From a virus, in IMG/VR virus record IMGVR_UViG_3300019487_000001, positions 126,001 to 190,000 of that record: a stretch of 64,000 bases of DNA; one strand, written 5' to 3'. The notes below the pieces were generated by a model that saw nothing but the letters and a program-made list of their open reading frames with translations, was not told the origin of the DNA and did not search any database. Each line of letters starts with the position of its first letter. The first letter of the stretch is position 1. Shown in pieces: positions 1,950 to 56,770 of the stretch. The position numbers and the translations under genes were made by a program.

Positions 1950-2960
1950 ATGAGCCAGTTCGACGAATACTCAGTCAGTACGGAGGATGGGGTTCTTGGA
2001 CATCGATTTCATGCGGAAATCGGTGGCGGTAATCTACAGCAACAATTTGATGTAGATCACATCGATGTTCCTCCGGCAACAGGAACTGGTAATGAGCTAG
2101 GTTCAAAATTTGACGTAGGTACTGGTGCAAGGTTTAGACATCGGTTTAGTGTAGAAGTCGGAAACGGTAGTTTTGGCCATCGCTTCTTCATGATCACGCC
2201 AAGATCTACTATTCATTTTATAGCTGCCTCGCTAACTGGAACCTCTGAACTCGTTGCACGAACTAAGGGATTACTGAAGCTTAACGAGCAGAGTTCTAAC
2301 GAAGATGTAGCTAGCCATAAGTTTCACGTTACTATTATTTCACATATTGCTCACACCAAGCATTACGTTGGTGCTTCTAATACTGAAACTGGTGGGGAAA
2401 AAGTTGCACGCACGAAGGGTTTAGATATATTTGTTTTAACAAATCAGAACGAGGATTGTGCGACACACAAGTTCCATGTTATTATACCGGAGTTTTTGCC
2501 TGCTGATTATCATTTTATAGGTGCTTCTAATACAGAGTCGGGTGGAGAAAAGGTTACTAGAATTAAGGGTGTAAATAAGTTTACTACGATCTCACCTAAC
2601 GAATCCGTAGCTGCACACAAGTTCCATGTTGTTTCTCAAACACATCGCGGCCTGCTTTACCATTTTGTTGGGGCGAGTAGGACTGGTGGTACTGGCACAA
2701 CTCGTATCTACGGTCTTAATAAGTTTGAAACATCACCGGATGTTTTCGGACATGAGTTTAATATTGCTGGCATAGAAGTTGATGGCACTAAGCCTCAAGA
2801 TCTAGGACAGACTTTATTTCACAAGTTTATTGTACGCGGTAATTATCAAGGTTCTGAATTCGGAGTATATGCTTGGGCTATGCCACCAGAATTTGGGGTA
2901 TTTACACAAGAATCCGATTGGCCCACGGGTCAATTCGATGAAACAGAGGAAGACTGTTAA
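1950..2960 (+). CDS. Tail-associated protein with ten GHKF-type motifs and four 50-residue repeats
   Basis: This 336-residue protein has variants of LGH[KR]F-x-V at about residues 16, 29, 50, 62, 75, 121, 171, 221, 266 and 289. Residues 88-265 form four repeats of about 50 residues: a strand such as YHFIGASNTESGGEKV, then T-R-x-K-G, then N-E-x-x, then a HKFHV copy. The HKF copies at 121, 171 and 221 are exactly 50 residues apart. Its first 35 residues closely match the N-terminus of the protein at 3670-4254 (MSQFD, then FHAEIGGGNL). The tripeptide run VDHID is shared with the 979-residue - strand repeat protein. The stop overlaps the next start (TAATG). I do not recognise a known family; a virion or tail role is inferred. 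Confidence 0.75.
   Translation: MSQFDEYSVSTEDGVLGHRFHAEIGGGNLQQQFDVDHIDVPPATGTGNELGSKFDVGTGARFRHRFSVEVGNGSFGHRFFMITPRSTIHFIAASLTGTSELVARTKGLLKLNEQSSNEDVASHKFHVTIISHIAHTKHYVGASNTETGGEKVARTKGLDIFVLTNQNEDCATHKFHVIIPEFLPADYHFIGASNTESGGEKVTRIKGVNKFTTISPNESVAAHKFHVVSQTHRGLLYHFVGASRTGGTGTTRIYGLNKFETSPDVFGHEFNIAGIEVDGTKPQDLGQTLFHKFIVRGNYQGSEFGVYAWAMPPEFGVFTQESDWPTGQFDETEEDC
2211..2744 (+). repeat. Four 50-residue protein repeats inside the first GHKF-motif tail protein
   Basis: Four successive units of about 150 bp encode a [YI]HF[IV]GAS strand, a T[RK]xxG turn, an N-E segment and an H-K-F-H-V strand. The last unit is shorter and ends in GHEFNIAG. The DNA of the units has diverged at synonymous positions, so this is an old protein repeat under selection, not a recent DNA duplication. 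Confidence 0.8.
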
Positions 2961-3667
2961 TGGCAATTGCTAAACAAGGACATAGGTTTGGCGTCAAACA
3001 GGACTCCCTGGGGCATAAATTTTGCTTACCCGGGGAGCTGCTCGGCTATGTCGACAATGATCTCTTCGACGCAGCGGCTGGCTGGAATGACTCCGCAAGC
3101 AATGGCACTGTAACTACCGATACTCCTACTTACACAAAGACTATTACGCGTGTCTCGGATAACGGAACTTTCAATGGGTTTACGCGGTCTACTGGCACGA
3201 GATTAAAGCGTGGCACACGTATTGCAATTGATTTTAGGTTTCAACAAAATCATAATGCGATTGCTTCTGGCGTAGCTGCGCAGTTTAGACTAGGGTTGGC
3301 GCCAAATAGTACTGGGTCTTATTCTAACACTTCAGGTTTGGCTGCTGGTATTCCCCAGATGAACAATGGTTTTATCGGCAGTGCTCCTAATGATGATGGC
3401 CCGCTGAATGATCGCTCAAACACCGGGTTGAGCTATGTTATTAAAGGTGCGGTGAGTTCGCCTGGTACTATTCAACGAAGTATTCAACCAAATACTGATT
3501 ACTATTTAATCTTTGAGCTCAATGAAGATGATACCGTTTCGCTTTACATAGAGGGCGGAGACTACACTGAGCCAGCTTTGATAGCTACCTCTCATTTAGA
3601 TTTATTTGGTGCCGCTAATGGCTCAGACTTAAGGCTAGCATATAATGTAGCGCATTCGGGGGTTTAA
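2960..3667 (+). CDS. Tail-associated protein: two N-terminal GHKF motifs plus lectin-like beta domain
   Basis: The 235-residue product starts on the stop codon of the previous gene (TAATG coupling). Two motif copies sit at the very start (QGHRFGV at residues 6-12, SLGHKF at 16-21). They are followed by one long beta-rich domain with alternating Ser/Thr/Gly strands resembling a concanavalin-type jelly roll (about residues 33-235). There is no signal peptide and no catalytic motif. The arrangement suggests a binding domain attached to the particle by the N-terminal motif pair. The lectin-like reading is an inference from strand pattern only. Confidence 0.65.
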   Translation: MAIAKQGHRFGVKQDSLGHKFCLPGELLGYVDNDLFDAAAGWNDSASNGTVTTDTPTYTKTITRVSDNGTFNGFTRSTGTRLKRGTRIAIDFRFQQNHNAIASGVAAQFRLGLAPNSTGSYSNTSGLAAGIPQMNNGFIGSAPNDDGPLNDRSNTGLSYVIKGAVSSPGTIQRSIQPNTDYYLIFELNEDDTVSLYIEGGDYTEPALIATSHLDLFGAANGSDLRLAYNVAHSGV

Positions 3668-9368: not shown

Positions 9369-11720
9369 ATGCCTGTACCGACTAGAGACATACAGGGACA
9401 CCGAGTAGTAGTAACCGGTATTCCTATCAGTATCAATGTTGACACTAGACAGAATGTCAAGAAGCGTCACCAGTTTATTCGCTTTGGTACATCTCTGGCA
9501 CCCAACGAAGTTAACCTAGCTTTTGCGGCAACTCCAGGTATTTCTTTGAGCAAGAATCTTCTTATATCAGATCGTAGTCAGTCTATATCTCAGAATTCAA
9601 ATGTGTTCTTGGCTAGTTCTTCAGACGAGGAATTCTTCGGACCAACGTTCAACTCCATTTACAAAGACTTTTTGGTTACCGATCAGTTCTCAGCTAATAC
9701 ACCAACTCAACGGCCTACGCCGTTTTATTATAAGCATTCCTTTGAGACCCCAGCTGATGACGTGATAGTCACTAGCCTCACTGTTACGGATAAAGATTTT
9801 AGGCCAGTGAGTACGACACAATATAAGATCGATTTAGATCGGCGTAACAGCGAAGACGGTCGTATCGGTGACTTCGTCTATCATAATTTGTTGAACACGT
9901 TCGACGAGGAGACCGGCGAATCTACGGTTTATTATGTTCGCTACACTCTGTCGAATGGGGAGTTTTTTACTAAGATTCTTAAGGCAGAAAAGATCTTCCA
10001 GCCTGCTACGTTCGAAGACGTGGACACGAATGGTAACATCTTTGAGGAAGCTCAGGTGTTTTTACTAGAGCAGCAAGGTAACACTTTCCTGCTTACGTTA
10101 CCCACGCAGAACAAATATGCTATTAGGTTTCTGGCAAATAATTCTCGTATCCAAGTTTTACCCCCAGCTGTTGGGACCAATGAAGTTCCGTGGTTTGTGC
10201 GTATCTCTAATGGTAGGTTTTTTGTAACAGATGGTTCGGCAACTTATCGTTATGAGGTAGCCGAATTTTCGCAACAGATTTTTAATCCCATAGAGCCATA
10301 CAAAATTGCAGTAGAAGAACCCGCACTGTTTGTGTCGGGTCGTATTTTGAGTCTTGGTCGGCAGAATATATTTCATAATCCAAGCAGTGGATTTTCTGTT
10401 GACATTGTTCATCGTGATCGCGAGGGCGAGATAGATCTGGGTCTTACCACAGATCCGGCCAAGTTCGATAGGGCAATCTCGGCTCTTAGCACAGCTAGGT
10501 ATAGAGAGGACGGCGGTATTCTAGGTATTGATCCATTGAGCGGAATGGTTCAAACTAGTATTGATATACCGCAGGATGGAGAGTTGACAGCGAGCTTTTT
10601 CTTTAAGGAAGAGCAGTACGAATTGACGCTTGTTAACTTTAATCCGATTCAGAATCGATCTGTATTGAATGGCCGCAAGGTTATCTATGTGGTCCCTGAG
10701 GCGGGACCAAATGGAAACTTGGGTCAAACGACTTCTGTACACATTCTGGATGTTGACAATCAGGGTATTATCCAGTCTACCACTCAAAATGGTAGTGGAG
10801 GGAATGAGAACCTAGCTAAGATAACGGGATTTGATTCTTTTGGAGACCCAATTGATAATCCCAATTCGATCGTAGTTAACAGTCTAGTTACAAGACCAAT
10901 GTATTATGATGCTATACCAGCCGTAAAACGTAATGTTGGCGTAGATTCTAATGTGGTCGGGCATCGTTTTACTACTACGATCCTAGATAACGATGGCAAT
11001 GTGATCGACAGTATTCTGTTCACGGATCGTTTCACGGTTGAAACTAAATTTGCAAACGAGAAACGGTATTTGATCCTAGCAGATATATTTGTTGCCGATC
11101 CTGACTCACCAGATTCAGTTACTCTACTTGATACCAGAATACGCGGTGGTGGTATTCGCGAGGATAGAGAAGCTGAACTCATTAAGAGGTTTCCAGAAAT
11201 TGCTTGGTTTTGGGATATCGGTTCATTGGATGGACCGCCCTTCCCGGCGGCGGCGACGTTTATTGTTAAGCTGCCCTTCAAGATCCTTGAGGAGTTTGGT
11301 GGTATATTTACCAAAGAACAAGTGCGAGATATTGTATCTAGACACGTAGCCGCAGGAGAATATCCAGTCATTCGATATTACGGAGCTATTCCGGAGATCG
11401 TTAGTCTTACGGCATCTGAGGAGACCCTTAGAGTTTGTTGGACTGGACTTGGTCCTGGTTTTAGTTATAATGTTTACTACCGTACCACGCGAACTAGCCC
11501 ATTAGTCTTGGCTAACTCTTCTCCAATTACAGACGCTGGATATGGCGAGCTTTGTTTAACGCTAGATGACTTAATGGATTTTGTTCCGTACTATGTAAGT
11601 GTGACGGCGATAGATTCTGATGGTATAGAGGGTCCGCACTCTGTGGCCTGGATCGGAATGCCTCGCCTAGTGGATCACAAAATAAAAGTTACTATAGGAC
11701 ACGTATTCACGGTCCTTTAA
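9369..11720 (+). CDS. Large tail protein with FN3 domain and GHKF motifs at both ends
   Basis: The 783-residue product has motif copies near the N-terminus (QGHRVVV), around residue 530 (VVGHRF) and as the exact C-terminus (IGHVFTVL). INVDTRQNV near residue 22 matches the protein at 5226. Residues of about 675-765 read as a fibronectin type III domain (PEIVSLTASEETLRVCW, then FVPYYVSVTAIDSDG and GPHS). FN3 domains are common surface decorations of phage tails. The remainder is beta-rich without catalytic motifs. A strong GGGGAG site precedes the start. The tail location comes from context. Confidence 0.7.
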   Translation: MPVPTRDIQGHRVVVTGIPISINVDTRQNVKKRHQFIRFGTSLAPNEVNLAFAATPGISLSKNLLISDRSQSISQNSNVFLASSSDEEFFGPTFNSIYKDFLVTDQFSANTPTQRPTPFYYKHSFETPADDVIVTSLTVTDKDFRPVSTTQYKIDLDRRNSEDGRIGDFVYHNLLNTFDEETGESTVYYVRYTLSNGEFFTKILKAEKIFQPATFEDVDTNGNIFEEAQVFLLEQQGNTFLLTLPTQNKYAIRFLANNSRIQVLPPAVGTNEVPWFVRISNGRFFVTDGSATYRYEVAEFSQQIFNPIEPYKIAVEEPALFVSGRILSLGRQNIFHNPSSGFSVDIVHRDREGEIDLGLTTDPAKFDRAISALSTARYREDGGILGIDPLSGMVQTSIDIPQDGELTASFFFKEEQYELTLVNFNPIQNRSVLNGRKVIYVVPEAGPNGNLGQTTSVHILDVDNQGIIQSTTQNGSGGNENLAKITGFDSFGDPIDNPNSIVVNSLVTRPMYYDAIPAVKRNVGVDSNVVGHRFTTTILDNDGNVIDSILFTDRFTVETKFANEKRYLILADIFVADPDSPDSVTLLDTRIRGGGIREDREAELIKRFPEIAWFWDIGSLDGPPFPAAATFIVKLPFKILEEFGGIFTKEQVRDIVSRHVAAGEYPVIRYYGAIPEIVSLTASEETLRVCWTGLGPGFSYNVYYRTTRTSPLVLANSSPITDAGYGELCLTLDDLMDFVPYYVSVTAIDSDGIEGPHSVAWIGMPRLVDHKIKVTIGHVFTVL

Positions 11721-31986: not shown

Positions 31987-34503
31987 ATGTTTAATGATAG
32001 AGTATTAAATTCGGATGAGGTTATTGCAAAACTGTTCCCGTATCTTCCTCAGTATCTCGAGGAACATGGCATTGATCCCAGTAAGCCGTTCAAGTGTATA
32101 AGCGCAAAACACGATGATAAGACTCCCAGCTGCTCCATAGTACCGGAGAGCAAAGTTTCTGGTGTCTGGGTATATAAGTGTTTTGGTGGTGGCTGTGGGC
32201 ACACTGGCAACATCTTCACTGCCGCTTCGGATCTCGAGAACAAGCCCCGTTCAGGCCCTAACTGGGTAGAAGAAACCCTAATTTATCTCGCCGATAAGTA
32301 CAAGGTGCCTGTTGAATTTCGAGAGCTCACCGAGTCCGAGAAGTTTGAATACAACACCTACCGTTGTTACAGAGATGCTGCTGAGCTGATCGCTGATCGC
32401 AAGCTCGGTGACTATAAGCATTTTGATATCGAAGCTAGACGTCGCAACTGGGATAGGGATATCTTGGAGAAGCTCGGCGTTGGCACCATCGATTACTCTA
32501 CGTTCCGCGAGTCGCTGAAGAACATGGGCTGGAACACAAAATTCTTGCAAGAGATTGACTTGGACAGGAAGGATCTTTTCAGCGAGTTTTCCATGATCTT
32601 TACTGTCAAGGATGAGCACGGTCGCCCCGTAGGTTTTGCTGCTCGCAACTTAAATTTTGAGAAGATGAAGACTGCCGAGAAGCGAGCCCCCAAATATATC
32701 AACACCGCCTGTAATAGTATGCGCTTCAATATTTACGACAAGGAAGCCAGACTGTACAATATTCATTTAGCTAAGGGTAGCACACCACCACTATACCTCT
32801 TCGAGGGATACGGAGATGTTATATCTGCATACCATAACGGTATCCAGAACGCGGTAGCGATCTGTAGTTCGACCCTTACAGATTCTCAGTTAGCCCTTAT
32901 CAAGAGTATCGGTTGCAACGAGATCATCCTCGGATTGGACGGGGATGCCCCGGGGCAAGCTGCAGTGGAAAAATTACTAGACGAGAAATTATCAGGTAGG
33001 CGTGACCTGAATATAAAAATCATGCACCTTCCCGGTGGCCAGGATCCTGACGAATTCCTGCGCAATAACACCGTAGAAGAGTTTAGAGCCCTTAGCCGCA
33101 TGAGTGCTTTCGAGTGGCGCCTGCGCCGCTTTGAAGAGGGCACACCCTCAGATGAAATTTGCAAGCGCATGATCCCGCTGATTGTTAACGAAGAGTCATA
33201 CATTAACCAAGAGACTATGTGTGAGCAGTTGTCCAGAGAGACCAACCGTTCACTTAAGTTCATTGTAGCTGAGTTAGAACGCTTGCAGAATCTCAAGTCT
33301 AAAGAGCTCTATGAACATCGGGAAGCGATTGTAGAGAAGACTTTCTACGACATTAAGCGCAATCCTGATGATGTTCGCTCCATTCTGCTTCAGGCTGCCG
33401 ACCAGGTTTCCGAGATAGAGAATCGATTTGACGAGAACAGTCTTTCGATCAATACGACCCTTTCTGTTCTGGAAGCTCAAAAGGCGGACGAGGAAAAGAA
33501 GTCCGACGAGTTCGCGGGCTATTATCTTGGTGATGCCCTAAGAGGATTACAGGATAAGCTGAACGGCGACTGGCGCAAAGACTGCGTTGTCTTCTTGGGT
33601 GGCAAAGAGAACTGTGGAAAGACAAGTTTAATGTGTCAGATTGCCTATGAGATTGCTAGAGATCCACGTAATAATGCTACAGTCATTTACCACAGCACGG
33701 ATGATACCATTGCTCAAATCTGGCCAAGATTTATTTGTACTTCCCAGGATACTCTCTTGGATTTGGGTCAGGTTACCCATCCTAGATACTGGCGAAAGAA
33801 GGTAGGTCCGAGCGTAGAGGGGCGACGGAAAAACGGTTATCAAGAAATTACCGACCTCGTTCGTGAGGGTCGATTAGTATTGCGCGATGTAACTTATGGC
33901 GATACTGTGTCGTACGGCGAATCTCTCGTGAAGTATTACAAGTCCAACTTCCCGGATCGTAATATAGTTTACATCATGGATAACTTCCATAAGTTTAGTG
34001 ACTTTCCAAATCTAGATACTAGGGAGAGGTTTACAAATCTTTCTAATAAAGTGAAGCGTCTTGCTACCGTGCACCATGTCACTGTTCTTGCTACGGCAGA
34101 ATATACGAAGCTTGGGCCAGGCATGAAGCCAAGCAATAACAACATCGCCGAGGCTAGAGCTATGCAGTATGACGGGAACGTTCTCTTGCACTTGTATAAC
34201 GATCTGCATGATATGGGGTCACAGAGTACGGTTTATCATTTGGACGAAGATGGCGAAACGCATCTGCCGATTATCGAGATCATCTTTGGTAAGAATAAAG
34301 TCAGTAGCTTCAAGTCGAACATGATGCTTAAGTTTTTTCCCAAAAGTGCCCGCTTCCATTTCATTGAAAAGGAAGAGGTACATAACAAAGTTCTACAAAG
34401 TAAAGCACAGCACATCCTAGAGAAAGAGCAAGCTAAAGAGCGAGTGCAACACATGCTGGAGGCTGTAAGACCCAATGGCCAAACAAGAACCGCCGGATCT
34501 TAA
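31987..34503 (+). CDS. Primase-helicase fusion (CHC2-like zinc finger, Toprim, DnaB-like helicase)
   Basis: An 838-residue protein. The N-terminal zinc-finger-like segment (KCISAKHDDKTPSC, then KCFGGGCGHTG, residues of about 36-75) resembles DnaG CHC2. The Toprim core is YLFEGYGDVISAY (about 260) with GLDGDAPG as the D-x-D. The helicase half begins near 490: Walker A GGKENCGKTSL, Walker B-like VYIMDNFHKF. The order resembles T7 gp4, joining primer synthesis and strand unwinding in one polypeptide. Length is greater than T7 gp4 (566 residues) because of a helical linker (about 370-490). RBS GGGAGG. Confidence 0.9.
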   Translation: MFNDRVLNSDEVIAKLFPYLPQYLEEHGIDPSKPFKCISAKHDDKTPSCSIVPESKVSGVWVYKCFGGGCGHTGNIFTAASDLENKPRSGPNWVEETLIYLADKYKVPVEFRELTESEKFEYNTYRCYRDAAELIADRKLGDYKHFDIEARRRNWDRDILEKLGVGTIDYSTFRESLKNMGWNTKFLQEIDLDRKDLFSEFSMIFTVKDEHGRPVGFAARNLNFEKMKTAEKRAPKYINTACNSMRFNIYDKEARLYNIHLAKGSTPPLYLFEGYGDVISAYHNGIQNAVAICSSTLTDSQLALIKSIGCNEIILGLDGDAPGQAAVEKLLDEKLSGRRDLNIKIMHLPGGQDPDEFLRNNTVEEFRALSRMSAFEWRLRRFEEGTPSDEICKRMIPLIVNEESYINQETMCEQLSRETNRSLKFIVAELERLQNLKSKELYEHREAIVEKTFYDIKRNPDDVRSILLQAADQVSEIENRFDENSLSINTTLSVLEAQKADEEKKSDEFAGYYLGDALRGLQDKLNGDWRKDCVVFLGGKENCGKTSLMCQIAYEIARDPRNNATVIYHSTDDTIAQIWPRFICTSQDTLLDLGQVTHPRYWRKKVGPSVEGRRKNGYQEITDLVREGRLVLRDVTYGDTVSYGESLVKYYKSNFPDRNIVYIMDNFHKFSDFPNLDTRERFTNLSNKVKRLATVHHVTVLATAEYTKLGPGMKPSNNNIAEARAMQYDGNVLLHLYNDLHDMGSQSTVYHLDEDGETHLPIIEIIFGKNKVSSFKSNMMLKFFPKSARFHFIEKEEVHNKVLQSKAQHILEKEQAKERVQHMLEAVRPNGQTRTAGS

Positions 34504-35176
34504 CGATCATCGGATCGATAAGGTTCGACAATACATTCTTAGAGTTGTTAAAGAGGAGTATGATCGACTCCTAGAGGTGGCACCAAGTGATAGCGCCACC
34601 CAGGAAATGTTTCAGTTGATGGCGCAGCGGCTCGAGCGCGAAGTTAATCGCGTCATCAAGACCTACAATGAAACCAACAATGACAATCTTTATATACGAG
34701 ATTACAAGCTAGACATAATGCCGGTGGTTGCTTCGCCCGGACTGAAGCAAGTTACAAGCGGCCAGTACATTGACATCGAACTGTTTTGGTATGAAACAGA
34801 GTTTGATCTCAAGGGTATGGTCAAGATGAAATATGTATGTTCTGTTAATCGGTGTCGTGCCGATATGAGAAAGATTGATCCATTGACCGTTGTTATCGAC
34901 GGGGTGGAATACGACTTCTGTCCTGATTGTTTTAGGCACTTCAAGGCTTTTACAACTCAGCGTCTTAAGCCTGGCCGTAAAACTAAACTAGCTGCCCAAG
35001 AGTGGGCCAAGTTCAAAAAGAACCATGATGCTCGTATTAGGAGAGGCCCCTCGATGCTTATCAATTTAGCTACCGAGGCTGTTCGAGCCATTGATGCACT
35101 TGAACAACCGACCCAGGATGAGATTGAAGATTTCTTTAGAACGCCCAGCGAGGCAGATATGGAGGAAGAAGAGTAG
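34475..35176 (+). CDS. Zinc-finger protein, paralogue 1 of 3
   Basis: A 233-residue protein. After a helical N-terminus (10-80) and a small beta region comes a treble-clef-like finger, VCSVNRC then YDFCPDCFRHF (about 125-155), with spacing C-x5-C-x~18-C-x2-C-x2-H. The next two genes repeat this pattern. An acidic tail (EIEDFFRTPSEADMEEEE) follows. It overlaps the helicase gene by 29 bp, with GGAGG upstream. Probably binds nucleic acid or a replication protein. Confidence 0.65.
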   Translation: MAKQEPPDLNDHRIDKVRQYILRVVKEEYDRLLEVAPSDSATQEMFQLMAQRLEREVNRVIKTYNETNNDNLYIRDYKLDIMPVVASPGLKQVTSGQYIDIELFWYETEFDLKGMVKMKYVCSVNRCRADMRKIDPLTVVIDGVEYDFCPDCFRHFKAFTTQRLKPGRKTKLAAQEWAKFKKNHDARIRRGPSMLINLATEAVRAIDALEQPTQDEIEDFFRTPSEADMEEEE

Positions 35177-35568
35177 TGGCCTACGTTAAAATATGCGACA
35201 TGAGGTCCTGCAGGAAAGAACTAGGCGATGATCTCTTCCAGCAACCAGTTGTTATAATGGGTAAAGGATATGATCTATGCCAAGATTGTGTTCGGCATCT
35301 CGAAAAGTTTGTTCAGTCCAAGTTAGCTGGTGGTTATCCTGTCATGGAACAGATACCTATCATACCGGATCCAGCTCCGGACCTTTCTCCACTATACCCC
35401 TTTCCTCCGATTACCAGTCCCTCGTTCCCATTGCCCAATATGCCGCCCATACCGGAGATATCGCCTTTACAAGACGATATATCTAGTGGTAGAGTTATAT
35501 GGACAGATAATCGAACTGTAACAGAAATGCCCCCACTTTCTAGACCGCGAGGAAGCCGTGGTTCATAA
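35176..35568 (+). CDS. Zinc-finger protein, paralogue 2 of 3, with Pro-rich tail
   Basis: The GTG start shares one base with the previous TAG stop, behind GGAGGAAGAAG. The 130-residue product consists of the finger (ICDMRSC, then YDLCQDCVRHLEKF, residues 5-45) and a long low-complexity proline-rich region (about 60-110) likely disordered. The finger aligns residue for residue with the flanking genes, so the three arose by tandem duplication and then acquired different tails. Confidence 0.65.
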   Translation: MAYVKICDMRSCRKELGDDLFQQPVVIMGKGYDLCQDCVRHLEKFVQSKLAGGYPVMEQIPIIPDPAPDLSPLYPFPPITSPSFPLPNMPPIPEISPLQDDISSGRVIWTDNRTVTEMPPLSRPRGSRGS

Positions 35569-36009
35569 AGTTATATGTGACATGAAGAGCTGCGGTGCCG
35601 ATATAACCAAGGCACCAGATGCACGGTTTCGTCTCCTAGATAAGGAATATAATTTCTGCGGTACCTGCGCTAGTCACTTGAAATCTTTCATTAAGAATTC
35701 CTTACACGATGGTAACGCTCCGTCAAGAATGCGCAGACTCCTTGAAGAAGGTCCACCTCCTTTGTATATGACTTCTGGATCTTCAACGCCTATTGAAGCT
35801 GAAATACAAGCGTTACGTGGTGTCTTGTCTCACGATCTTGGACATGAGGCGCATCAAATGATGAGAGAAGCTCGCCAGGCCATTGAGCAAGATATGCAAG
35901 CCATGGAGAGCGATCTTCGTGCCCTAGAGAGAGAGACAACCGAGCCATAGAGACTGATTATAGACGCATGGATGACTTCCTCTTCGGTAACAATAAAAAG
36001 GAAAAATAA
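35558..36009 (+). pseudogene. Zinc-finger protein, paralogue 3 of 3, frameshifted at a GA repeat
   Basis: As written, the frame from GTG 35558 stops at 35950 (130 residues: finger ICDMKSC then YNFCGTCASHL, and a helical tail). The tail is interrupted at (GA)5, 35927-35936. Removing one GA continues the helix as LERDNRAIETDYRRMDDFLF and ends at TAA 36007, two bases before the next gene, matching the dense packing of this operon. This may be a real mutation, phase variation, programmed -1 slippage, or a sequencing error. The stop at 35950 is the conservative end; I consider the extended form ancestral. Confidence 0.6.
35927..35936 (+). repeat. GA dinucleotide run (five units) at a coding frameshift
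   Basis: Five consecutive GA units within the helical tail of the third zinc-finger paralogue. Loss of one unit joins the two frames; see the pseudogene entry. Confidence 0.8.
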
Positions 36010-36011
36010 TT

Positions 36012-36965
36012 ATGAAATTTAGCTTTACGGAAGTTATGGGGTTTATCCGAAAGATTCCCAACTGGCCCAAATATGTTGTAATCGTATTTTTAATCTTCGC
36101 CCTGGTCGGTATCTTTAACGAATGGTACCAGAACAGAGAGAGACTTTTGTCCCTCAAGAGAGACTACCAGCAACTATCCAGTAACCTAGCTGCCAGTGAA
36201 TCAAAGTTTTCCACCTTGTCTGATGTCAAGAAATCCCTAGAGGAGAACATCCAAGAAAAAGACAAGGTAATCTCTTTGCTTAAGCAACAGAATTTAGACC
36301 TACGTTCCGTAGGAACTACCAAGGGTAATATACCCGGTAGCTCTAAGGACACTGGGGTTGAACCAGGCAAAGAAGTTTATACGGACCTGCTGGCATTTGG
36401 TAACGGTCTGCCGGTAGCTCGGGCAGAGTTTAATACGAAAGAACCCGCCTGGCACAACAAGGTTTTTGGTATAGATTTTGAAGTCAATACGGTTATTGCC
36501 ACAGACAAGAATGGTCTAGACCAGGTTATAACCCAGGTCAATGCCTACAATAACGAGCTCGAGGAAACAAAGGGTAAGCCCTTCCCGGTAGCTGTTACGA
36601 GTTCAAGCTTTAAGCAGGTTTTGCCCGATACAAAAACTTGGCACTTTATTAACCCCAAGCTAGACTTAGCGGCCAGCGGTGGGGTGTCCTGGAAGGATCT
36701 CTCTGTAGCGCCCTCTATTACCCCTGAATTGGGTTTTTCTATGATGGGATATGGGCTGACGTCAGAGGAAGAGACCTGGCGCTTCCTGCGCGTTTCAGCG
36801 GGGTATGATGCGTACAACCGAACTGCCCGGGGTGGCGTAGGCCTAGCTGGCTACAACCTTGGGACCGTTTTGCCACTGGTAGATGACTTATGGCTATGGC
36901 CAGTCTACACAGTAGATCACGAAGGTCGATCAGGATTCAGCCTTTCAATAGGCACGAACCTATAG
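36012..36965 (+). CDS. Membrane-anchored coiled-coil protein with beta-rich C-terminal domain
   Basis: The 317-residue product has one N-terminal membrane segment (YVVIVFLIFALVGIF, about 22-36), a coiled coil (about 45-95), a Gly/Pro linker, and a C-terminal half of alternating strands that includes GGVSWKDLS and ends GFSLSIGTNL. The topology (short cytoplasmic start, periplasmic coil and beta domain) is reminiscent of envelope-spanning lysis or superinfection proteins; the final strands look amphipathic. RBS AAAAGG. No family is recognised. If the host is Gram-negative, a spanin-like or envelope role is possible. Confidence 0.6.
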   Translation: MKFSFTEVMGFIRKIPNWPKYVVIVFLIFALVGIFNEWYQNRERLLSLKRDYQQLSSNLAASESKFSTLSDVKKSLEENIQEKDKVISLLKQQNLDLRSVGTTKGNIPGSSKDTGVEPGKEVYTDLLAFGNGLPVARAEFNTKEPAWHNKVFGIDFEVNTVIATDKNGLDQVITQVNAYNNELEETKGKPFPVAVTSSSFKQVLPDTKTWHFINPKLDLAASGGVSWKDLSVAPSITPELGFSMMGYGLTSEEETWRFLRVSAGYDAYNRTARGGVGLAGYNLGTVLPLVDDLWLWPVYTVDHEGRSGFSLSIGTNL

Positions 36966-37453: not shown

Positions 37454-37660
37454 ATGCCTCAATACGAATATCATTGCGAAGCTAACGGTCGCAACGTTGA
37501 AGTTATGCAGAGTATCAAGGACCAATCCTTTAAGACTTGGGGAGAGTTATGTGCGGGCGCAAAGATTGATCCGGGTGATACACCGGTTGATTCTCCCGTC
37601 ACAAAGGTTCTTCATGCCCATCACAAACACGGATCCTGGTCTCAGTGGAGAGCCCTGTGA
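37454..37660 (+). CDS. FmdB-type zinc-ribbon protein with lost second cysteine
   Basis: The 68-residue protein starts MPQYEYHCEANGRNVEVMQS and continues SIKDQSFKTWGELC, closely matching the FmdB putative regulatory family (usually M-P-x-Y-E-Y-x-C-x-x-C-G with E-V-x-Q-S and a second C-x2-C). Here the first pair is C-E-A-N and the second only L-C-A-G, so classical four-cysteine zinc binding is absent. The product may keep the fold without metal. The last codons overlap the next gene (GTGA). Confidence 0.7.
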   Translation: MPQYEYHCEANGRNVEVMQSIKDQSFKTWGELCAGAKIDPGDTPVDSPVTKVLHAHHKHGSWSQWRAL

Positions 37661-53296: not shown

Positions 53297-53844
53297 AATA
53301 GCTCCCCAAATCTTGATTTTGATTTATCATCCGCTAACACATCTTGAACATTGCCCTGTTCTATACGATCCAGTCTTTTTAGGATCTCTTCTTGCTTGCG
53401 AAGATACCAGTGCGCCAACCTAACCCAGTCGGCAATAAATTCATTGTGAGCACGAGCTTCTAGGCTATCAATTAGTCTTTGAGAATGCTCATCTTCGAGT
53501 GGCACAAAATTCTCCCGTCTTATGGCTGATCGAGCCCATGCGTCTACATCAGTGGGTCCGGTAATACGTCCTAATAAGTCTACGGGTATACTAGAAGGTT
53601 CATATATAGGTACCGTACGTGGAGCTACCAGTGGTTGTTCCGGAAGATTAGCTTGGTACCGCCACCTCTTCATCAACCAGACCTCGAATGGATCACCCGG
53701 CGTGTCGATGGAATACATCTCAGAAAAACCACGGAACTGAACTACGTTCCTCCATGAAGAGTAATAAGCACTTGCAGTGTAGGCTGTATGGGCACCACCG
53801 GGTATATCATATGATATAATCCCAAAGCCCCTATATGTCGTCAT
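53293..53844 (-). CDS. Hypothetical protein ending in RFGELL, after the GHKF scaffold gene
   Basis: The start at ATG 53844 overlaps the end of the 979-residue gene, giving 183 residues; the longer frame to 53994 runs through that gene and is not needed. The product is rich in Tyr/Trp early (YSSWRNVVQFRGF) and helical late, ending KSRFGELL, the shared tag. Its linkage to the repeat protein suggests a virion or assembly role. Confidence 0.6.
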   Translation of the reverse strand: MTTYRGFGIISYDIPGGAHTAYTASAYYSSWRNVVQFRGFSEMYSIDTPGDPFEVWLMKRWRYQANLPEQPLVAPRTVPIYEPSSIPVDLLGRITGPTDVDAWARSAIRRENFVPLEDEHSQRLIDSLEARAHNEFIADWVRLAHWYLRKQEEILKRLDRIEQGNVQDVLADDKSKSRFGELL

Positions 53845-56770
53845 CCACCAAAGCAATCTTAGCGATAGCATTCGGACCTGTATACCGGACAGTGACACGA
53901 GAATTCCGCGAAAGATTCTGGTCAGCAGTGAGATTTGCATCCGAGACTTTTTGCTCGATTGTATTTTTGTTTGCTCTGATGACTGTACCGCCAAGGTCCG
54001 CTCCCAAGAGGTCTAGTAACTTGTCCCCTCTTACTTGAATGATAGTTCCACTTATAGCATTCCCTGAAACTTCCTTCAATAATAAGATTTCTCCCACTTT
54101 ATTGGGAGCCTCTAACTGCAATTGTAATAGAGCTGGTAACCGTAGAATGAACTTGACTGTTATTGTGTCAGAGATTCTACAAATGCGTGGAGTGGCAAAG
54201 TATGGAGCTACAACTAGAGCGACGGATTCAAGGCCATCCGGGTCGAATGCACCTGGTGCATAAAATAAAGGAGATCCGTTAGACAGTTTGCCATCTCTGC
54301 CTGCACCGGGACGCAATTGGATCTCAACAATAGCCTCCGCCAGTTCTCCACCTAAGAGAGGGCCACCGAGATTGAAGGTACTCTCGAGCATGGCCGGATC
54401 GAACGGCGGGAAGATGGGGCCATTGATAATGTTCTGACCAATAACTATGTTGTTAATCTTTAGAGTGATGGTCAGTTTATCGATGGGCCACACTTGACTG
54501 ATAGCTTGACCGGGGAGATCTGAGTCTTCGAAGATGTTAAAGCCGGTCGCCTGGACTTTGATCTGGGTGTCATTCAATATCGTATCGCTACCATCCGGAT
54601 TAGATATGGTGATGTCAGTAAGATTACACTGGGGGTCCTCATTAAACCGATAGAGGTTCACGTCATAGTTATCGAACGGTATGGGGAAGATACCTTGGCC
54701 TCGCACCAACGCCGATGGCAGCGCTCCAAACAGACCGGTGCGTGTGAAGGTATGATCGGGCGTATTAAGATCCAAGCCTTCACCAGAAGCCTTTGTACTC
54801 GTAGGTGTAGCTGGTACAAAGACTGGGATCTTAATTAAACCTAGATAAGGCCTACCCCCTAGATCGATATCAAACTCCAGAGGACTTGGGTATTCCTCAC
54901 TACCGATAGGTCTGTGATCGAATGGAGTGTGATCATCGGGGGTACCTTGGCCATGTTCCACCAGGAGACCAGGGAACGGGTCATTGGTATTTGCAACACG
55001 AGGATCTGGGTGGGCAAGGATTGGGAGAAGAGGCTTTGTGAGCCGCCAGACATCTACGTCGAAAGCAGCGCTACCATCTACATCATTAAAGGTAAACGGG
55101 TAGACGTCATTCTCAATCGGATGGCGTTTGAATCCATCGCCACCGTCAAAGACAGTGGTTCCAAATGTCTGGTTCTTATTGATCTCGTATGCAACTGCGG
55201 GTACGCCACCAACTCCCAGCGTTCCCGTCTCCGGTGGTTTGTTCCCTAGAATTGAGTGCTCGAAAATGCCACGGATAAACCGGTCTATTCCGATACCGTC
55301 ATCTAGGGGTACAGGGAGATCAGAGGTGTGTCTGATCATTGAGTTCGGATCGTGGTGAATATTGTGGGGAACTCCACTATCCAAAATATCTGTATTATGA
55401 ACGTCGCTACCGACATGGGTCTTAGCGTCCAGGTCGATATCTGAGTAACCAAATCTTATTGCGACAACATTAAAATTGTCTCCGTCTAGGTCAATGATAC
55501 CCGTCGGCATAACCTGGAACCTGTGCCCTTGGAAGCCGGGCAGCTTCGGTATATTAACCTCGAACTTGTGTTGTAGAGAGTCTCGGCGGGATCCTACGCC
55601 GTTGGCAGAGAAGATGTGACCTAAGGCATCTGATCCTATATTGAAGGGCTGGAAGAACTTATGGCCCAAACTCTCGATAGTAGAGACCTGGGTAATAGCA
55701 AGGCGGTGGAAGAGGAAGTCAAAGGCTCTGAGAGCACCTTGGAACTTATGACCGAATTGATCTTCTGCATCCTGCTCGACCGCGAAACGATGGTTGAGGA
55801 CCTGACCGATGGCACTGAAGTGATGTCCTAGAGCATCTATGGTGCCAACCTCAACGGCAAGTCTATGGCCGAGGGGTTCGTTCGCATTGATGCCAGCGAT
55901 GTTAAACTCATGGCCTAGCTCATCTGTATCATCCTGAGTAACACCGAAGCGACAACCTAGGGCATCCGTAGCATTTTGGGCAACGGCAAACTTATGACCG
56001 AATGGATCTCCGAAGACACCGAAGCGATGCTCCATTTCATCTTGTGTGCTTATAGATACGGAGAACTTGTGGCCGAAGTTATCTGTTACGAATGGTAATG
56101 CAAACTTATGACCTAGCGCATCCGTAGCATCTATGTGATCAATGTTGAACTTGTGTGAGAAGTTATCTTTAGCTTGGACAGTACCGGTGAATTTGTGACC
56201 AAGGGCATCTGCCTGGTCTACAAATCCTACAGTAAACTTGTGGCCAAGTTCGTCTGTATCCCGAATCTCATTACAATTAAACCGATGACCAATGTGATTC
56301 TGAATTTCAGCACGGAACTTATGGCCTAGGGAGTCTGAAGCATTAATCTCATTGACATTAAACCTATGCCCAAACCTTTGACCTTCGTCAAAGGGATAGG
56401 GGGGAACGTCAATGCCGGGAATGGTAAATTTATGACCGAGTTGGTCGGCTGGAGTGGCGTTGAACTTATGACCTAGTTCATCTTGATCGTCGATATGATC
56501 GACGTTGAACCGGTGTCCTAGAGCATCAGTAGCACTGATGGGACTTGCGTTGAACTTATGACCGAGTGCGTCAGTAGCTTGAACAGCTACGGTAAACTTG
56601 TGCCCTAGTTCATCGGTCGCAGTAAATACCGCTGTGAACTTATGTCCGAGTGCATCAGTCGCATCAATATGATCGACGTTAACCCTATGCCCTAGGGCAT
56701 CGGTTCCGAATTCGCCGAACTGAATAACGACGGCACATAAAAGAGGTATGTTAATGGGGGTACAGGACAA
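53831..56770 (-). CDS. 979-residue protein with about 28 tandem GHKF-type repeats and beta-rich C-terminal region
   Basis: Residues 20-420 are almost wholly tandem copies of a 10-22-residue unit (mostly about 14-15), consensus [AE]LGH[KR]F-x-[VA]-x(3-5)-[AT]-[TD]-D. Examples are TDALGHKFNV and DELGHKFTV; exceptions include LGCRF and LFHRL. Residues 420-979 are beta-rich domains without motifs. Shared phrases with the + strand tail proteins (VDHID, GHEFNIAGI) indicate a common origin. The start is uncertain: a TTG at 56770 with only GGGAAG 12 bp upstream; no better in-frame start exists before the first repeat. Probably a large virion or scaffold protein; I recognise no known family. Confidence 0.75.
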   Translation of the reverse strand: MSCTPINIPLLCAVVIQFGEFGTDALGHRVNVDHIDATDALGHKFTAVFTATDELGHKFTVAVQATDALGHKFNASPISATDALGHRFNVDHIDDQDELGHKFNATPADQLGHKFTIPGIDVPPYPFDEGQRFGHRFNVNEINASDSLGHKFRAEIQNHIGHRFNCNEIRDTDELGHKFTVGFVDQADALGHKFTGTVQAKDNFSHKFNIDHIDATDALGHKFALPFVTDNFGHKFSVSISTQDEMEHRFGVFGDPFGHKFAVAQNATDALGCRFGVTQDDTDELGHEFNIAGINANEPLGHRLAVEVGTIDALGHHFSAIGQVLNHRFAVEQDAEDQFGHKFQGALRAFDFLFHRLAITQVSTIESLGHKFFQPFNIGSDALGHIFSANGVGSRRDSLQHKFEVNIPKLPGFQGHRFQVMPTGIIDLDGDNFNVVAIRFGYSDIDLDAKTHVGSDVHNTDILDSGVPHNIHHDPNSMIRHTSDLPVPLDDGIGIDRFIRGIFEHSILGNKPPETGTLGVGGVPAVAYEINKNQTFGTTVFDGGDGFKRHPIENDVYPFTFNDVDGSAAFDVDVWRLTKPLLPILAHPDPRVANTNDPFPGLLVEHGQGTPDDHTPFDHRPIGSEEYPSPLEFDIDLGGRPYLGLIKIPVFVPATPTSTKASGEGLDLNTPDHTFTRTGLFGALPSALVRGQGIFPIPFDNYDVNLYRFNEDPQCNLTDITISNPDGSDTILNDTQIKVQATGFNIFEDSDLPGQAISQVWPIDKLTITLKINNIVIGQNIINGPIFPPFDPAMLESTFNLGGPLLGGELAEAIVEIQLRPGAGRDGKLSNGSPLFYAPGAFDPDGLESVALVVAPYFATPRICRISDTITVKFILRLPALLQLQLEAPNKVGEILLLKEVSGNAISGTIIQVRGDKLLDLLGADLGGTVIRANKNTIEQKVSDANLTADQNLSRNSRVTVRYTGPNAIAKIALVDDDI
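55500..56710 (-). repeat. Tandem array coding for the GHKF peptide
   Basis: About 28 coding units of 30-66 bp (mostly 42-48). Codons vary widely among units encoding the same residues, so selection acts on the peptide, not on the DNA. Neighbouring units share longer phrases in places (ATDALGHKF), suggesting repeated unequal exchange. Confidence 0.85.

Follow-up and report, generated by a model that had tools for sequence, protein, structure and literature searches.

A frameshift in a GA repeat truncates a zinc-finger paralogue in a virus record

Overview

A frameshift in a GA tract cuts short the third of three zinc-finger paralogues behind a primase-helicase gene, a result that is well supported. 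The window, i.e., the whole stretch of DNA analysed here, comprises 64 kb (positions 126001–190000 of a 194,631-base virus record). To judge from its frames, codon use and repeats, the break is real at the level of the sequence, but nothing identifies it as a switch in preference to a sequence error or an ordinary mutation; an ordinary slippage indel is the most likely cause, with a local consensus error second. The frameshift itself is not categorically new. As it stands, the finding is an annotation correction: gene callers would end the protein at 130 aa and would leave as "intergenic" 61 bases that represent the former 3′ end of paralogue 3. The features concerned are as follows.

31987–34503 (+): primase-helicase (Toprim and DnaB-like), the upstream synteny anchor
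34475–35176 (+): zinc-finger paralogue 1, 233 aa, with its zinc finger at about residues 119–168
35176–35568 (+): zinc-finger paralogue 2, 130 aa, with a proline-rich C-terminus
35558–35950 (+): zinc-finger paralogue 3 in its cut-short form, 130 aa, with a GTG start; an N-terminal Cys-x4-Cys ... Cys-x2-Cys-x2-His domain, a linker and a long C-terminal helix
35879–35964 (+): four 21-nt heptad-coding repeats, starting at 35879, 35900, 35921 and 35944
35927–35936 (+): (GA)5 tract, the frameshift site, one unit beyond what the downstream frame needs
35937–36009 (+): detached 3′ end of paralogue 3 in the −1 (= +2) frame, with MDDFLFGNNKKEK and a stop at its end
36012–36965 (+): 317-aa protein with an N-terminal hydrophobic stretch and a coiled coil, the downstream neighbour

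One GA unit sets the reading frame of paralogue 3

The first-pass annotation had claimed that a GA-repeat frameshift truncates a zinc-finger paralogue and that removal of one GA joins the helix ending in ALERE to a further frame, which stops two bases before the next start. The tract, stops, frames and coordinates were all confirmed, and the translations agreed. In frame 0, paralogue 3 reads ...ALERETTEP and stops at 35948–35950, 14 bases past (GA)5. When it was translated with one GA unit fewer, the product ended in ...ALERDNRAIETDYRRMDDFLFGNNKKEK and the stop moved to 36007–36009, two bases 5′ of the next start (ATG 36012); the 24 residues gained (DNRAIETDYRRMDDFLFGNNKKEK) take the place of the ETTEP end. 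Comparison of the translations showed that the number of GA units sets the reading frame of paralogue 3.

Within the 64-kb window, no dinucleotide tract other than (GA)5 reaches five units, and the whole 194.6-kb record holds three such tracts, (GA)5 included. Per 64-kb window, about 0.1 GA/CT-type tracts of such length are expected, indicating that a repeat of this kind within the gene is beyond chance. The remaining tracts of at least five units in the record are (TC)5 at L002:11185–11194, inside an ORF on the minus strand (L002:10987–11694), and (AT)5 at L004:8762–8771, apparently between ORFs.

The detached frame has coding character

The frame downstream of the tract reads as coding DNA. 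Coding score was computed as in-frame versus out-of-frame codon use after training on 89 genes of the same phage. The 23 codons of the detached frame reached a log-likelihood ratio of 6.64, which tops 79% of true in-frame windows (mean 4.2); out-of-frame open windows averaged −4.6, and 2 of 1380 reached 6.64. The detached tail showed no decay: its 24 codons are uninterrupted by a stop, and its codon statistics are normal.

The four repeat units encode the heptads AIEQDMQ, AMESDLR, ALERDNR and AIETDYR, spaced at 21, 21 and 23 nt; the third unit, which holds the GA tract, is 23 nt long and has two extra bases. Unit 4, which belongs entirely to the detached frame, matches units 1–3 so well that, on both strands, no more than 2 of 388,586 other 21-mers equal it. 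The heptad match was weaker at the protein level (shuffle p 0.0045) than at the DNA level, and the pattern is partly due to coiled-coil composition. A similarity between DDFLF in the tail and the EDFFR end of paralogue 1 was dropped as not significant (shuffle p 0.95).

From the last upstream stop (35884–35886) to ATG 35968, the detached frame has no ATG, GTG or TTG, and ATG 35968 (MDDFLF) opens only a 13-codon remnant. Having no start of its own before this remnant, the detached frame can be understood only as the end that paralogue 3 has lost; without a start codon between that stop and the MDDFLF ATG, it could not have become coding as an independent gene. The gap left by the truncation is 61 nt and is exceeded at 1 of 28 neighbouring junctions (152 nt, holding a 45-aa ORF). 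Gene junctions in the cluster measure at most 19 nt in 26 of 28 cases, so a 61-nt gap is unusual. The AlphaFold2 single-sequence model of paralogue 3 predicted a confident helix over residues 78–127 of 130, running into the frameshift, with pLDDT values of about 95–98 over residues 101–120 and low confidence in the zinc-finger part.

The zinc-finger cluster

The three zinc-finger genes are tightly coupled and lie directly behind the primase-helicase. Each carries one copy of a common zinc-finger-like domain, Cys-x4-Cys ... Tyr-x2-Cys-x2-Cys-x2-His. Mutual phmmer E-values of 5e-6 to 3e-5 bore out the paralogy that had been claimed for them, and no other match was found among the ORFs of the record. 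By BLAST, paralogue 2 is the closest paralogue of paralogue 3 (30% over 77 aa). The paralogues are like small C2...C2(H) zinc-finger proteins in their short Cys-x4-Cys and Cys-x2-Cys-x2-His domain; unlike those proteins, they pass no Pfam family cut-off, and nothing convincing was found for them in PHROGs or PDB. The best Pfam match, a weak lead, was Arc_trans_TRASH (PF08394; E 0.027, 15 bits against a cut-off of 27). Because of the zinc-finger domain and the place beside the primase-helicase, our guess is that a zinc-binding head on a coiled-coil stalk binds nucleic acid or protein. Farther downstream, 37454–37660 encodes a 68-aa zinc-ribbon protein, Zn_ribbon_8-like below the cut-off, to which related phages appear to have syntenic counterparts.

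The phage and its relatives

The record contains bacteriophage genes for terminase, portal, major head, sheath and baseplate proteins, together with genes for a primase-helicase, a RecA/UvsX-like recombinase and ThyX; this gene content marks its source, an uncultured large tailed bacterial virus, as a bacteriophage. We compared it with Acinetobacter phage ME3, Moorella phage MTATph1 and Bacillus phage vB_BauM_KLEB27-3 (KLEB27-3), to whose proteins its terminase is 30–34% and its tail sheath 30–35% identical. The annotation of Metrivirus ME3 refers to Bacillus phage 0305phi8-36, and the homologous terminase and sheath join the record, via ME3, MTATph1 and KLEB27-3, to the large myophages like 0305phi8-36. 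The relationship is nevertheless distant, the link to 0305phi8-36 itself is indirect, and ME3, MTATph1 and KLEB27-3 are without the zinc-finger cluster. The closest terminases among IMG/VR contigs are only 38–41% identical; therefore, no near relative was found there.

The nearest-relative primase was 43% identical, and its alignment brought in more relatives with the same neighbourhood; a primase search of genome contigs returned distant primases only. None of the syntenic relatives examined has a zinc-finger paralogue behind the primase. Three genes come after the primase in L101, L102 and L104: an unrelated one, one for a zinc ribbon like that at 37454–37660, and a third that, in the case of L102, can be aligned with the 317-aa gene at 36012. 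The 317-aa gene is kept in a relative without the zinc-finger genes.

A profile built from the three paralogues recovered each of the three copies from the record to which the window belongs, indicating that the search works, and returned nothing from related viral records (many of them fragments), ME3, MTATph1 or KLEB27-3. No orthologue of paralogue 3 was found by DNA or protein in phages, viral contigs and plasmids; some of the collections may omit the nearest records. When a DNA pattern across the GA tract was searched with a gap of variable length, the site turned up in no other record, and no tract-length variant was seen. The zinc-finger cluster is lineage-specific, so far as the collections searched show. 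It occupies 34475–35950, between the primase-helicase and conserved neighbours; at this place, the small genes of relatives, where there are any, are unrelated.

Origin of the extra GA unit

We consider a one-unit (2-bp) slippage insertion in the GA tract, within the coiled-coil-coding end of a lineage-specific phage gene, to be the best account of the break and a reasonably probable one. The ancestral frame, for which the evidence is internal because the searches turned up no relative in which the copy is intact, would have run through four heptads to the stop at 36007–36009, giving a protein of about 149 residues with the charged tail MDDFLFGNNKKEK. Replication slippage would have added one GA to the third heptad unit, and translation through the extra GA leaves the frame and reaches its stop, behind ETTEP, at 35950. 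What the protein loses is the last heptad and the tail; it keeps the zinc-finger domain and most of the predicted helix. The frameshift falls in one of the three rare dinucleotide tracts of the record, as slippage predicts. We infer a recent event of replication slippage and a real population variant rather than a base-calling or assembly error.

The undecayed tail, with its open 24 codons and normal codon statistics, would also be seen if the true genome had (GA)4 and an intact gene, and (GA)5 were a sequencing or assembly error; the shift amounts to exactly one repeat unit, and a single wrong unit would be enough. However, a (GA)5 tract is short for tract-length errors in sequencing or assembly, and no second frameshift came to light across the 69.6 kb of the record that have homologues in the relatives compared, although this check was about 50% sensitive (43 of 84 simulated 2-bp insertions detected). 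Because no other frameshift occurs in this homologue-covered DNA, a real variant is mildly favoured over poor assembly; a generally error-prone assembly is disfavoured, and we regard an error at the tract as unlikely yet deserving of attention. A further reading is phase variation, in which the tract slips reversibly in and out of frame and produces long and short forms that switch under selection. A simple sequence repeat within the coding region, a frame that follows the unit number cleanly and the rarity of such tracts in the record are consistent with it. Phase switching, however, usually targets surface or receptor-binding proteins, and the product of paralogue 3 is no known protein of either kind. 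Moreover, five dinucleotide units form a short tract that is explained by the heptad-unit codons GAG AGA GAC, the short form retains most of the protein, and neither tract-length variants nor relatives were found. The slipped-strand indels in short repeats of contingency loci are like paralogue 3 in having a coding-region repeat whose unit number sets the frame. In contrast, here the tract is a short dinucleotide one in a phage gene, one length was observed, there is no sign of reversible switching, and the loss is limited to the last ~24 residues. The model in PMC4085013 concerns homopolymer tracts in meningococcus, a bacterium, and a literature search for repeat-driven variation in phage genes gave bacterial cases and reviews. 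We consider phase variation improbable; a slippage-switched zinc-finger gene near the replication genes, in which the GA tract would toggle the coiled-coil end and charged tail with both forms in one population, is less probable still. Mixed tract lengths in the reads would point to repeat-driven variation of a phage gene outside receptor-binding proteins, which is unsupported now.

Both forms might instead be made from one mRNA by programmed ribosomal frameshifting, either −1 or as a +2 hop from AGA 35930 or GAG 35927. Perfect re-pairing two bases downstream is available to both codons; the GA tract, being purine-rich, resembles a weak internal Shine–Dalgarno sequence; and the overlap 35887–35947 is open in both frames. 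However, this overlap lacks an X XXY YYZ heptamer, a homopolymer of at least 4 and any site for tandem −1 re-pairing of 4 of 6 bases. No stable downstream structure was predicted (MFE −9.8 versus a shuffle mean of −12.8, z +1.08, in a model that does not cover pseudoknots), and an interrupted repeat unit of 23 nt is what an indel gives. The absence of a slippery site, homopolymer and downstream structure leaves a DNA change of one GA unit. The first-pass claim of a truncating frameshift in the GA tract stood; of the four mechanisms offered with it, programmed −1 slippage fell for the lack of these signals and appears unlikely; a +2 hop by tRNAs on GAG 35927 or AGA 35930 would be unusual and is formally possible. 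Taken together, we hold recoding on the ribosome to be highly improbable. It is scarcely credible that the gene naturally ends at the 35950 stop and that the tail match is a coincidence: in favour of this reading, the long form was seen in no relative, but the coding score, the repeat match and the repeat spacing jointly oppose coincidence, and the tail frame is without a start of its own.

A repeated motif elsewhere in the record

A 979-aa ORF at 53831–56770 (−) has 18 matches to a short motif around (L/F)GH(K/R)F ("ATDxLGHKFxxxxx"). The motif also occurs once or twice in the ORFs at 1950–2960, 2960–3667, 9369–11720 and L005:17272–18399, and it is possibly a modular fibre or adhesin repeat.
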